Assembly: GCF_021389935.1 (NCBI RefSeq) | Contig: NZ_CP089979.1 | Location: 4,135,001 to 4,199,000, forward strand | DNA from: Fulvivirga ligni | GTDB lineage: Bacteria > Bacteroidota > Bacteroidia > Cytophagales > Cyclobacteriaceae | DNA length: 64,000 nucleotides | Reading direction: 5' to 3' | Shown: piece by piece, positions 8,347 through 59,005 of the stretch | Numbering within the stretch: position 1 is the first letter of the stretch | How the letters are laid out: each line of letters opens with the position of its first letter | Translations under genes and position numbers: made by a program | Notes under the pieces: generated by a model | What the model was told of the DNA's origin: nothing | Seen by the model: only the letters and a program-made list of their open reading frames with translations | The model's database searches: none

Positions 8347-8358
8347 GCAATCGATTGC
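8347..8358. promoter_or_regulatory. AATCGATT palindrome upstream of susC
   Basis: GCAATCGATTGC is a perfect 12-bp palindrome about 150 bp upstream of the chosen susC start, in the 328-bp gap (8202-8529) between susC and the GH2 gene. An even palindrome with a central CG is typical of LacI/GalR-type operators. The same core occurs at five other intergenic sites in this window. The regulator is not identified. Confidence 0.5.
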
Positions 8359-8429
8359 TGGGTTCATCTTATAGTAAACCCATGTGAATGAGTTAGTTCC
8401 AAAAGGAATTTTGACTCATTTAATTATAT

Positions 8430-8508
8430 AGAGCAGGATAATTCGGTTTTAACTCACTTTAATTAAAAAAAATTAAAATAAAATTAACGGCCGTTGTTAT
8501 CCTGCTCT
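8430..8508 (-). terminator. Long inverted repeat behind the GH2 gene, possible terminator or processing site
   Basis: AGAGCAGGATAA (8430-8441) and TTATCCTGCTCT (8497-8508) are perfect 12-bp inverted arms. CGG/CCG may extend the stem, and the A+T-rich loop of about 55 bases includes a second palindrome AACGGCCGTT (8486-8495). It lies 22 bp past the GH2 stop and before the susC promoter. It could separate the two transcripts or set their ratio. The loop is longer than in ordinary terminators. Confidence 0.35.
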
Positions 8509-8529
8509 GAACTATTAAGAAATGGTAAA

Positions 8530-11500
8530 CTAATTACTTGATGAATAGCTTTTAGACTCCGCTGACAGTGGAGCTATCCTAAAGCTGAATTGGTTTTGAT
8601 CTGAAACGGGCAGCTCATATTTCTGCATGGGACCAGGGCCACAGCTGGCATTACCCAAACCGCGCTGCATATAATCTAATGATAATACAGTTTCTGATTT
8701 TTTAATGTCTGGTAATAGATATTGATGTCCCACTTCCCACAGGTCTTTATCATAAAAATGTAAAGCGCTGAAGTTCAGTCTGCCGCTAGTGCTGATACTG
8801 ATACCTCCTTTTTTACCCTGGATATTGAGCCATCTTACATCATCTCTGTTCCCCATGGTCTGGCTTCTCACATAGTCCTCTTCCATACCTGTGACAGTAT
8901 TGGAATAGATACCATAATAAGTTGATGCTTTTCTATCGGCATAATTTTCATGCGGACCACGACCATACCATTGTACATTCTCTAAACCAGGAGCCAGGGA
9001 AATGGCCAAACCTAACCTTGGAATATGTAATCCGTCATTGGTATTATCAATATTGGCATTTACTTCCACCACACCTGAAGGATGGACGATATAATTGATG
9101 CTGTATGGAATCACGCTCCTACGGCCGTCACCTATGTTGGCAATAAAAGAGGAGTTAACCACGATATTGCCACCACTCTTGCTCGTGCTGAAATTGCTCA
9201 GTTCTATTTGAGGTTCTATGTAGTTTCTTCTGTCATTATTAATGCTTCGGTACCAGTTTAAGCTGAAACCTTTGCCTTCATAGATCATCTCCTGGCCTTC
9301 TATCACCATGGAGTTTAGCATACCGGTAGTTTTATTAAATACCAATCTGATGTCATCTCCAGATACAGTTATATGTCCATTTTCATCTAACATTTTTAAT
9401 GGCGTGGTATCAGCATCATTAATCTGCGCCAGCTGTGGTCTTGAGCTCATAGAGATTTGCTCAGAAGCCACCACATGACCTTTATCTGCCCACACCTGAT
9501 CTTCATTCAGGGCAAAATAGATGTTAAGAAAGTACTCTTTATTTTCTGCTAACTCTTTATTAAATGGAATCTTTATTGATTTGCTTTCTCCCGGTTTCAG
9601 GTTTAGGCCTGCCATTTTTCCCTGAGCCACATTCTTGCCATTTTCTAATAAAACCCATTGAATATCAAACTGATCCAGGTTGATAAAGGCATAGCTGTTC
9701 TTGATTTTCAGCTTCCCTGTCCTGGCATCTTCAGCTTCAATTTTGATATACTGATAAACTTGCTTTACCTCTAAAAGCTTTGGTGTAACCTTTCTATCAG
9801 GTGTAACTATACCGTTGAGACAGAAGTCATTGTCGTTCGGCTTATCACCAAAGTCGCCGCCATAGAGAAACTCATCTTCCGGGCCACCATATTTCATTAA
9901 TCCCTGATCTACCCAATCCCAAATACAGCCGCCAATGGTCTTTTTACTGTGATTTTCGATATAATCCCAATATTCCGGTAAGTTACCAATACCATTACCC
10001 ATGGCGTGGGCATATTCACACAGGAAGAATGGCTGATCATTATCATCCTTATCTGTAGCTATCATGCTCTCCACAGAAGGGTACATACGGGAGTAAAGAT
10101 CTGCAGCATCATTCTTACCTTCATAGTGCACAGGTCTGCTGCTGTCTTCTGCTTTAATGGCGCTGTAAACTTTGTTGAAGTTATCTCCATTACCACACTC
10201 ATTACCCATAGACCAAAAGATAATGGCAGGCCTATTCACATGCTCTTTTACATTTCTTATGTTTCTATCTACATAAGCAGGTATCCAGCTTGTCTTTCGG
10301 CTTAGAGAATTGTTTCCGTGGGTTTCCAAATCAGCCTCTGACATTACATATAAGCCATAATAATCATACAGCGCATACATTTTTACATCATTAGGATAAT
10401 GACTAGTACGCACGGTGTTTACGTTGTGCGTTTTCATGAGCTCAATATCTTCAATCATGGAAGAAACTGGAATGGCTTTTCCGAAGACAGGATGCGTATC
10501 ATGTCGGTTGACACCCTTAAAGAACACAGGTTGACCATTTACATAAACTCGCTTATTCTTAATCTCTATTTTTCTAAAGCCAAATTTTTCAGAGATCACT
10601 TCCGTAACCTGACCACTTTTATCTTTTAGGCTAAGTATCACAGTGTATAAAACCGGTGTTTCGGCACTCCATAACGCTGGTTGATTGACTAGCTCTGACA
10701 GAGAAACGTCTAATTTCTGTCCTTTTTTCACGGTACTGATGCTGGCTTCTTTAGAAAACATATCTTTACCAGAAGGGTCGATAACTGTTACCTGTAGCTG
10801 ACCTGATTTCCAGGTCTTACCCTTGTTTTCAATGGTTGTGATAAGCTTTAAAGTTGATTTGCTGAAATCATCTCCATTAAATGATGTGGTAATTCTATAA
10901 TCCTGGATGTGAGCATTCGGAACAGCGTAAATGGCTACATCTCTGTGAATCCCACTTAGTCTGAACATATCCTGATCTTCCAGATAGCTACCATCGCTCC
11001 AGCGATATACTTCTACAGCCACAGTATTTTTCCCAGCCTTAATTTCTTTTGTTACATCAAACTCTGCTATGTTATTAGCGCCCTGGCTGTAACCTACTTT
11101 TTTACCGTTTACCCATACGTACATAGCGCTATACACACCATCGAACCTCAAGTACAATGTTTTGTCAGCCCAGTCTTCAGGTATATTAAATTCTCTGCGA
11201 TATGAGCCTACGGGATTGGGTTCTTTTTCATTAGTATAACCTGGTTCCGGTTTTATAAATGGAGGGTCATTCTTATGAGGATAAGTAATGTTAGTATAGA
11301 TAGGTGTACCATAACCCTTCATTTCCCAGTTGGACGGCACTGCAATATCATCCCAGCCAGAAACATCAAAATCTTCCTCGTAGAAGTCTGTAGGTCTTTC
11401 ACTTGGTTGCTTCACCCAATGAAACTTCCAGTCACCATTTAGCAGTTGATAAAGCGAAGACTCTGTTCTCTCCCATGGTTTGTTATAAGTAGGATCTTTT

Positions 11501-57610: not shown

Positions 57611-57640
57611 AAAAGGCCGCTTTATAAGAGCGGCCTTTTT
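57611..57640 (+). terminator. Rho-independent terminator
   Basis: AAAAGGCCGCT (57611-57621) pairs with AGCGGCCTTTTT (57629-57640), with a U-run. It lies between the lipoprotein gene and the convergent porin gene and can serve both. Confidence 0.88.
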
Positions 57641-57697
57641 ATATTTTGTCTGATTTGGAAAAGCAGCTGCATTTATTTTTAAGCAGCAGCCTCATCC

Positions 57698-58987
57698 TTA
57701 TTTACTTTTACTATTGAACAATGACGGGGTAGCTACCAGCATAATATTTGCCCATTGTTGTCTACGAGAAGCATCTCCTCCCTTCAGCACTTCCATCTCA
57801 TCCTTGGCAAACATTCTGGCATAAGCCACTGTAAGGCTCACTTTTTCTCCCAGCTGATGAGTAAACTGAACGTCCACCTCAGTGCCCAGGTTACCATCTA
57901 CCATGTAAGGAACTGTGGGTGAGGTCTCGTCAATTAAACTGCCTGCCACCGCAAAATTTGTGGCTACGATTTCCAGACTAGTTTTGGGGTTAAACTGATA
58001 ATCCACCTCAAAACGAAGTTCTCTCAAACCTGCTCCTTTCGCATCTTCTTCGATATTTAGGAAATAATCCATATACCCATAATACCTATGAGCATCGCCA
58101 AATAATTTATTAAAAGCTTTGTATTTGCCGCTAGTGTCATCCACTTCATTGCCACTAAAGTAGTTTACGCCAAAAGTAGTAGTAAGCTTTTCTGCCACAG
58201 TGATAGCAGGCAGAATGGATAACATATAAGCACTTACAGTAGAACCATTCGGGTGAACCCCATATTGATAATAGAACGATGATTTCAAAGCAAAAGCAGA
58301 CTCTCCACGATCCTTTTGAAAATAGACACCGGAAGTAAATCTGGTATGTGTTTCCGTGTGATCATCAGGATTTTCCCTTCCATCAACAGACTGTAAAAAC
58401 GAACCTTGCCATTGCTTGTTCAAGGCATAATTCAGCCATAATACGCCCATGTACTTGTAGAAATTGGTTTCATAGGCCTGTTTATAAGTATCATAAGAGT
58501 CGTTATTATATGCTCCGGCCAATTTCATATACAGTTGATCACCAACATATTCTAACAATAACATATCATGAGAAACAGCTATATCATTCCAATTTCTCAT
58601 ACCATAAATACGGCCATCATCAAGAACCAAATGCTGTCTACCGGTTTTAACATAAAACTTTGATGAATCCCCCAATTGATACCTTAACCAGCCTTCTGAC
58701 AGGTTGATATTTCCTGTATTTGCCCTATCAGCTTCTACCCCCCAAATTCTGGCGTTTTGAAATGACATTTGTAGCTCAATCCTATCCTTTTTATAGTTGG
58801 TAAGAAGTCTAGTTCTTTGTGACACCACAAAGGCAGCATCCTGATCCTTTGAAAGCAATTCCCGGGCACCATCTCTGAACTCTCCCCTGGCCCTGAAATT
58901 AGCATTGACGCTAAACTGAGCCTGTACATTTGATGATAATAAAAACAGAATTAGAGAACTGGAGAGTAATAGACTTTTATAAGACAT
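57698..58987 (-). CDS. Alginate-export family outer-membrane porin
   Basis: A 429-residue outer-membrane beta-barrel. ATG 58987 starts a signal peptide (ending SSNVQAQ); an ATG at 59026 is disfavoured because it would precede the operator. SVNANFRARGEFRDGAREL, SQRTRLLTNYKKDRIELQMS and VKTGRQHLVLDDGRIYGMRNW fit the alginate_exp (AlgE-like) porin family. In Bacteroidota such porins pass organic acids or sugar acids rather than alginate. No alginate genes are nearby. An AATCGATT palindrome lies a few bases upstream of the start. Confidence 0.82.
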   Translation of the reverse strand: MSYKSLLLSSSLILFLLSSNVQAQFSVNANFRARGEFRDGARELLSKDQDAAFVVSQRTRLLTNYKKDRIELQMSFQNARIWGVEADRANTGNINLSEGWLRYQLGDSSKFYVKTGRQHLVLDDGRIYGMRNWNDIAVSHDMLLLEYVGDQLYMKLAGAYNNDSYDTYKQAYETNFYKYMGVLWLNYALNKQWQGSFLQSVDGRENPDDHTETHTRFTSGVYFQKDRGESAFALKSSFYYQYGVHPNGSTVSAYMLSILPAITVAEKLTTTFGVNYFSGNEVDDTSGKYKAFNKLFGDAHRYYGYMDYFLNIEEDAKGAGLRELRFEVDYQFNPKTSLEIVATNFAVAGSLIDETSPTVPYMVDGNLGTEVDVQFTHQLGEKVSLTVAYARMFAKDEMEVLKGGDASRRQQWANIMLVATPSLFNSKSK

Positions 58988-58997
58988 GATGGAATAC

Positions 58998-59005
58998 AAT
59001 CGATT
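58998..59005. promoter_or_regulatory. AATCGATT palindrome overlapping the porin leader
   Basis: The core AATCGATT is centred 14 bp upstream of the porin start codon, where a bound protein would block initiation. The flanks (AC/TA) are less symmetric than at the other sites. Confidence 0.4.

Follow-up and report, generated by a model that had tools for sequence, protein, structure and literature searches.

The window analysed here, a stretch of 64,000 nucleotides from the chromosome of Fulvivirga ligni (contig NZ_CP089979.1, positions 4135001-4199000 of a 6.52-Mb genome assembled as a single contig), carries six copies of the palindrome AATCGATT, at positions 8349, 14081, 14679, 30090, 41175 and 58998, several of them ahead of genes for glycan use. 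This palindrome very probably forms the core of operators for LacI/GalR transcription factors of at least two specificities, i.e., a type B that would serve mannose/alpha-mannan use through the LacI proteins P0001 and P0002, encoded elsewhere in the genome, and a type A that would belong to LacI proteins of a xylan and a probable uronate locus. The signal lies in the location of the core and not in its total number. All six copies are intergenic according to a codon-based gene caller, in a window with a coding share of 83.7%; an intergenic order-2 Markov model predicts 0.24 copies in the 10.4 kb of intergenic DNA where six are seen (Poisson p = 2e-7), and 100 dinucleotide shuffles of the window gave a mean of 1.21 copies and a maximum of 4. 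The preliminary description of this DNA had reported six copies, each between genes, and a perfect 14-mer among them. Exact counting and gene calls bear this out, the 14-mer being GTAAATCGATTTAC at 30087-30100 (2 copies in the whole genome), and five of the six coordinates were right, the box given at 30089 lying at 30090. The further statement that boxes precede most glycan-related genes is somewhat strong: Pfam scans of 28 of the 46 genes called in the window gave a count of six glycan units, and four have a box upstream. Among these four, the glycoside hydrolase (GH) family 12 unit has only the weak box at 58998, and no box lies upstream of the remaining two, GH2 (8530-12114) and a carbohydrate-binding module protein (20063-23899).

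Around the common core AATCGATT, the boxes of the window and of the genome split into two flank classes. Type B has approximately the form TTGCTAAATCGATTTAGCAA, also written (T)AAATCGATTTAG, and type A the form GCAATCGATTGC, also written (G/A)CAATCGATTG(C/T), and the two are clearly distinct. A position weight matrix (matrix B) was built from 7 type-B sites of the same genome located outside the window, with the consensus TTACTAAATCGATTTAGTAA, and matrix A was built from ten type-A sites. No single full-length motif describes all six boxes, which receive opposite scores under the two matrices. Type B is strong in the boxes at 14679 and 30090 and medium in the box at 41175. The box at 8349 is probably type A-like and of medium strength, and class membership is doubtful for the boxes at 14081 (weak, type A-like) and 58998 (weak, hybrid). 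The boxes and their adjoining genes are as follows:

268..8201, minus strand: SusC-SusD-BT_3987-like-GH76 unit (Pfam), near FecR (12243-13070) and the sigma factor below; susC start at 8201, alternative start at 8270; GH76 is an alpha-mannanase family
8343..8362, unstranded: type-A-like box AATTGCAATCGATTGCTGGG, 147 bp upstream of the susC start; matrix A 10.9, matrix B -7.1
13437..14033, minus strand: extracytoplasmic function (ECF) sigma factor gene (Pfam Sigma70_r4_2 and r2)
14075..14094, unstranded: weak type-A-like box AACCGCAATCGATTCCTGTC, 47 bp upstream of the ECF sigma gene; matrix A 8.6, matrix B -3.8
14673..14692, unstranded: type-B predicted operator AAACTAAATCGATTTATTTT, 54 bp upstream of the GH43 start; matrix B 18.7, matrix A 3.9
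14741..16270, plus strand: GH43 glycoside hydrolase, probable type-B target (Pfam PF04616, E 7.7e-63)
28167..30008, minus strand: probable type-B target, an MGH1-like glycoside hydrolase (mannosylglycerate hydrolase-like; Pfam PF22422, E 4.5e-55)
30084..30103, unstranded: type-B predicted operator with the perfect 14-mer, 81 bp upstream of the MGH1-like gene; matrix B 15.8, matrix A -5.0
41169..41188, unstranded: medium type-B candidate site AGTTCAAATCGATTTAGCCA between divergent genes (40491-41096, minus; 41325-41738, plus), both without a Pfam match; matrix B 10.2, matrix A -6.5
58992..59011, unstranded: weak box of hybrid type, GAATACAATCGATTTAGAAG, with an Alginate_exp porin gene starting 10 bp away and a gene for a GH12/lectin protein 159 bp downstream (Pfam); matrix B 8.6, matrix A 7.2

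The preference for intergenic DNA extends to the rest of the chromosome. A systematic sample of 60 stretches of 20 kb (1.2 Mb, 10.5% of it intergenic) holds 34 copies of AATCGATT, 14 intergenic and 20 coding. The intergenic copies compare with 2.86 expected under an order-2 Markov model (p 2e-6, the lowest among the 256 8-bp palindromes), and the equal density in coding regions that the preliminary description had named as speaking against its proposal is not seen, coding density being below intergenic density. Both flanking dinucleotides belong to the set TA, GC, AC and TC in 10 of the 14 intergenic copies vs. none of the 20 coding copies, a contrast that is somewhat optimistic because the set had been derived from a bigger collection that overlaps this sample and was in part chosen by site. 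At a score of at least 14, matrix B finds 55 sites per Mb of intergenic DNA in this sample (7 matches, of which 3 are training sites and 2 are type A) and 0.9 per Mb of coding DNA (1 match).

Seven LacI genes are present in the genome and none of them lies inside the window, which is consistent with a regulator acting in trans, as the preliminary description had proposed; its suggestion that an even palindrome with a central CG points to a LacI-type operator likewise gains support from the form of the consensus TTACTAAATCGATTTAGTAA and from the boxes found at LacI genes. It had also called for a LacI gene with the site in its own promoter, and P0001 is such a gene. Two paralogs, 55% identical, are associated with type-B boxes:

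5763455-5764477, plus strand: LacI gene P0001, with box AAAAATCGATTTAG 94 bp upstream, divergent from a ROK sugar kinase gene
4004446-4005471, minus strand: LacI gene P0002, following a major facilitator superfamily (MFS) sugar-transporter gene

Both proteins exceed the cut-off of 27 for the LacI helix-turn-helix PF00356 (46.9 bits for P0001, 35.9 bits for P0002), both match NCBIfam LacI-type models over nearly their full length at scores below the model cut-offs, and both have a recognition helix that opens with Lys-Thr. Residues 7-336 of P0001 align with CcpA (E 8.4e-37), effector domain included. The locus of P0002 encodes three GH92 enzymes, GH38, GH130, GH2, SusC/SusD and a further MFS transporter, and is therefore read as an alpha-mannan locus. 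It contains six type-B boxes, at 4007054, 4017596, 4023973, 4036298, 4049215 and 4049282. The first lies upstream of the MFS gene that precedes P0002, through which P0002 would control its own expression on the assumption that the two genes are co-transcribed. Boxes also precede an unlinked GH92 gene (4606090, minus) and an MFS permease gene (4227377, minus). A terminator-like inverted repeat lies at about 4005536, between the MFS and LacI genes (locus L033); its stem contains operator-like halves and scores 10.9 as type B.

The pattern CTAAATCGATTTAG is concentrated in the same part of the chromosome, 6 of its 10 places at up to one mismatch and, at up to two mismatches, 11 (1.5 expected) of the 50 listed places (51 in total) falling between the P0002 gene and the window end, for a pattern derived largely from this very region. 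The pattern AAATCGATTTA has 31 strand matches in this genome, the highest number among 118 genomes of the family, and its own reversed control has 16. Among 20 site-gene pairs of the genome, the distance from box centre to gene start is 30-140 bp in 11, with extremes of 14 and 261 bp.

Relatives of these regulators in other genomes carry similar boxes. A congener encodes a LacI protein 71% identical to P0001, whose gene also has a box 94 bp upstream, and the P0001 box falls within the longest stretch over which the two promoters are identical. Of 30 family LacI loci fetched, 19 were readable and 11 were left out (no reading frame by pattern); AATCGATT occurs within 350 bp upstream in none of the 17 readable loci other than P0001 and its congener, and these 17 have Ile, Thr or Val, never Lys, at position 17. 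This position, numbered as in LacI and, by the LacI structure, the first of the recognition helix, corresponds to Lys19 of P0001 and aligns with a Met of CcpA. A wider set of 79 named LacI relatives was analysed, taken from the 80 highest-ranking of 302 confirmed places, with a relaxed helix pattern that took in all 79 (a first pattern had missed 4). The 330 bp ahead of the helix contain exact AATCGATT in 25 of 56 relatives with Lys17 vs. none of the 23 others, and a site scoring at least 10 with the matrix B of our genome in 36 of 56 vs. 1 of 23. The rate of AATCGATT is 997 per Mb in these upstream stretches, compared with 46 per Mb elsewhere in these loci. Among sites scoring at least 14 in these loci, near-copies of loci included, 74 of 79 are intergenic and of promoter type, upstream of gene starts as for LacI-type operators, and 5 lie inside called genes. 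Among 10 scanned neighbours of the Mucilaginibacter, Dawidia and Mariniphaga regulators are genes for GH92, GH2 and alpha-rhamnosidase-like enzymes, for a ROK kinase and an MFS permease, and for a protein with a mannose-6-phosphate-isomerase domain.

The relatives also disclose a tie, within this subfamily, between residue 17 and the operator. The arms TTGCTAAA-N-CG-N-TTTAGCAA, with the base at -2 left free, have 60 matches vs. 3 for reversed arms. The half-site base at -2 is T in 59, C in 12, A in 11 and G in 2 cases at Lys17 loci, and A in 30 and T in 6 cases at Ile/Pro/Gln/Thr loci (Fisher test on T and A, 1e-11, with rows that are not independent); relatives without Lys17 thus favour AAACGTTT in the same arms. 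For the phylogenetic test, 45 of 81 rows had an operator verdict and 36 were dropped; among the measured rows, 31 of 34 with Lys17 are T-type and all 9 others are A-type, and P0001 and P0002, entered by hand as T-type, bring the former to 33 of 36. Boxes resembling TTGCTAAAACGTTTTAGCAA occur within these arms at eight loci without Lys17 (L241, L249, L254, L260, L267, L292, L294 and L307). Another locus, L234, from a record titled as a Thalassovita metagenome-assembled genome, encodes a LacI protein and a GH92 enzyme 71-77% identical to their counterparts in the Bacteroidota mannan locus described here. Its contig has therefore probably been binned wrongly, and none of its sites scores above 11 as type B.

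Type-A boxes have a different genomic address. They cluster at a xylan locus with GH10, GH67, a DctP-type transporter and a LacI gene at 1983553 (plus), and at a probable uronate locus, where a mannitol-dehydrogenase-family gene accompanies a LacI gene at 2066098 (minus); the interval 1961000-2111000 (L025, L026, L030 and L032) forms a dense type-A cluster with these two LacI genes. Another type-A box is located upstream of a GH11 xylanase gene at 3721079.

By analogy with characterised LacI proteins (PMC4052901), the following mechanism is the likeliest. The LacI proteins with a Lys-Thr helix, P0002 and P0001, would bind the type-B boxes, most likely with a dimeric repressor on each palindrome, and mannose or a mannose-derived compound arising as mannan is degraded would release the repressor, thereby opening the polysaccharide utilization locus, the transporters and the kinase. 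Within the window, the type-B regulator would act in trans on the GH43 gene (box 14679) and the MGH1-like hydrolase gene (box 30090), and perhaps on the divergent pair at 41175. The type-A boxes would belong to the LacI proteins of the xylan and probable uronate loci, and the box before susC (8349) is probably under this class. The main operator class is thus most likely a mannose/alpha-mannan regulon extending over several genera, and not a device of general glycan use. A more specific proposal, for and against which we see the scales as evenly poised, is that a TVSF-helix LacI subfamily controls mannose/alpha-mannan use in several Bacteroidota genera through one 20-bp frame, TTGCTAAA-N-CG-N-TTTAGCAA, in which the exchange of Lys for Ile, Pro or Gln at the first recognition-helix residue re-tunes only the -2 base (AATCGATT vs. 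AAACGTTT). If so, the -2 switch could insulate paralogous mannan systems from each other.

Several results weigh against this mannan-operator interpretation. The core is not over-represented genome-wide (146 copies vs. 163 for the reversed pattern), nor is CTAAATCGATTTAG at up to two mismatches (51 vs. 62 reversed), and the six copies of the window, where the genome averages 1.43 per 64 kb, lie in the high tail only (p = 0.0036, uncorrected for the roughly 100 windows). AAATCGATTTA is not raised in two congeners (8 and 9 matches, controls 11 and 21), which, as one case only, fits congeners that lack a close P0002 relative; a search with P0001 gave two matches in genome G107, the one at 71% and another at 31%, but none in G036. 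Conservation in related genomes, on which the preliminary description had made its proposal depend, is divided: boxes at the regulators and at neighbouring mannan genes recur, while the examined homologs of window genes have none. AATCGATT is missing before both MGH1 homologs (70% identical), before all 6 examined of 11 other GH43 matches (38-53%) and before all 19 examined of 22 other SusC matches (38-49%, paralogs included), homologs that are mostly not clear orthologs, in hosts without a demonstrated Lys17 regulator; with the cut-offs applied, neither of the two congeners has a match to MGH1 or GH43. The Bacteroidota -33/-7 promoter consensus, with no more than 1 mismatch overall, matches near 2 of the 20 site-gene pairs and is absent at 18, so that the geometry does not discriminate activation from repression. 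Among the 56 Lys17 loci, 31 are without exact AATCGATT and 20 without any site scoring at least 10 in the 330 bp upstream, most Lys17 rows are from Mucilaginibacter, and 3 of the 34 measured Lys17 rows are A-type. The association of residue 17 with the base is not phylogenetically independent: on the effector-domain tree, operator type and residue 17 form 1 independent pair on starred branches and 2 on all branches, and upstream box and residue 17 form 2 and 5, respectively, leaving the tree-controlled test without power with its 1-2 usable pairs on well-supported branches. Finally, the type-A LacI proteins have Pro or Ala at position 17 and are nonetheless associated with AATCGATT, which limits the residue-base rule to the subfamily.

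The preliminary description had envisaged a single LacI-type global glycan regulator on all six boxes. The shared core, the intergenic placement of every copy and the glycan genes behind several of them would suit such a protein; however, the boxes at 8349 and 14081 score negatively with matrix B and those at 30090 and 41175 with matrix A, the flank classes gather at separate LacI loci that differ in their enzymes, two boxes are weak and the genome has seven LacI genes, which together make one regulator for all improbable. We likewise give little credence to the idea that the boxes of the window arose by chance in AT-rich spacers and that true operators exist only elsewhere in the genome. Weak scores at 58998 and 14081, the missing boxes at homologs and the unraised genome total would agree with chance, but six intergenic copies far exceed the 0.24 expected, and the boxes at 14679 and 30090 fall in the score range of at least 14, where intergenic sites outnumber coding ones per Mb as given above. 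Least credible is a non-regulatory palindrome, such as a restriction-modification target, a nucleoid or chromosome-partition site or a mobile repeat. An 8-bp palindrome repeated across the chromosome could be any of these; such an element would not account for the location of sites ahead of genes (74 of the 79 with high scores at the relatives' loci), for flank classes tied to LacI loci or for covariation with the recognition helix of the regulator.

A survey of the LacI family describes even palindromes with a central CG, mostly located 30-140 bp upstream of starts, and 72% autoregulation, and its Table 1 lists five groups, with ManR as an example, for mannose and mannosides (PMC4052901); a LacI regulator of mannose use is therefore known in kind. 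P0001 and P0002 share with LacI/GalR members such as CcpA, PurR and RbsR, which are among the nearest solved structures of P0001, the PF00356 domain, the even central-CG palindrome, its position mostly upstream of starts and frequent autoregulation. They differ in their helix, TVSF/AVSF (with Phe) instead of TVSR, in scoring below all NCBIfam cut-offs, and in the predicted recognition of AATCGATT within the TTGCTAAA/TTTAGCAA arms; the share of pairs at 30-140 bp (11 of 20) is also smaller than the >75% of the survey (PMC4052901). Control of mannan use in Bacteroides is attributed to HTCS_Man systems and a GntR-family ManR (PMC3878776). The targets are alike, namely alpha-mannosidases, SusC/SusD and mannose catabolism, whereas the regulator in F. 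ligni would be a LacI protein instead of a hybrid two-component or GntR one, which offers a testable alpha-mannan regulon for Bacteroidota outside Bacteroides. The same source (PMC3878776) describes the LacI uronate regulators KdgR, UxaR, UxuR and UxmR of Bacteroides, which the type-A regulators resemble by family and locus content, with type-A sites at xylan/GH67 and mannitol-dehydrogenase-family loci.

In the LacI code of PMC2978694, the first residues of the recognition helix set operator bases, with two bases (NT-4/NT-5) in the TVSR group, and a supplement legend correlates NT-2 with AA-55, AA-15 and AA-5. Here the contrast is in a TVSF group, between Lys and Ile/Pro/Gln at the first residue, and concerns the base at -2, so that these LacI relatives form a natural series for how one recognition-helix residue sets operator choice. 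Another paper, on an XylR-like protein (PMC12125979), was of no help here. A description of this regulon was not found in the open-licence literature searched, from which we make no firm claim that it is unpublished, and a text search for AATCGATT gave only unrelated titles among those listed.

The window has further features. A piece of an IS110-family transposase (Transposase_20) lies at 25551-26339. A probable siderophore locus at 31321-37832 comprises consecutive genes for an IucA/IucC synthetase, an MFS transporter, a lysine/ornithine monooxygenase and a pyridoxal phosphate-dependent decarboxylase, and a bacteriophytochrome-type histidine kinase (PAS_2, GAF, PHY and HisKA) is encoded at 47213-49441.

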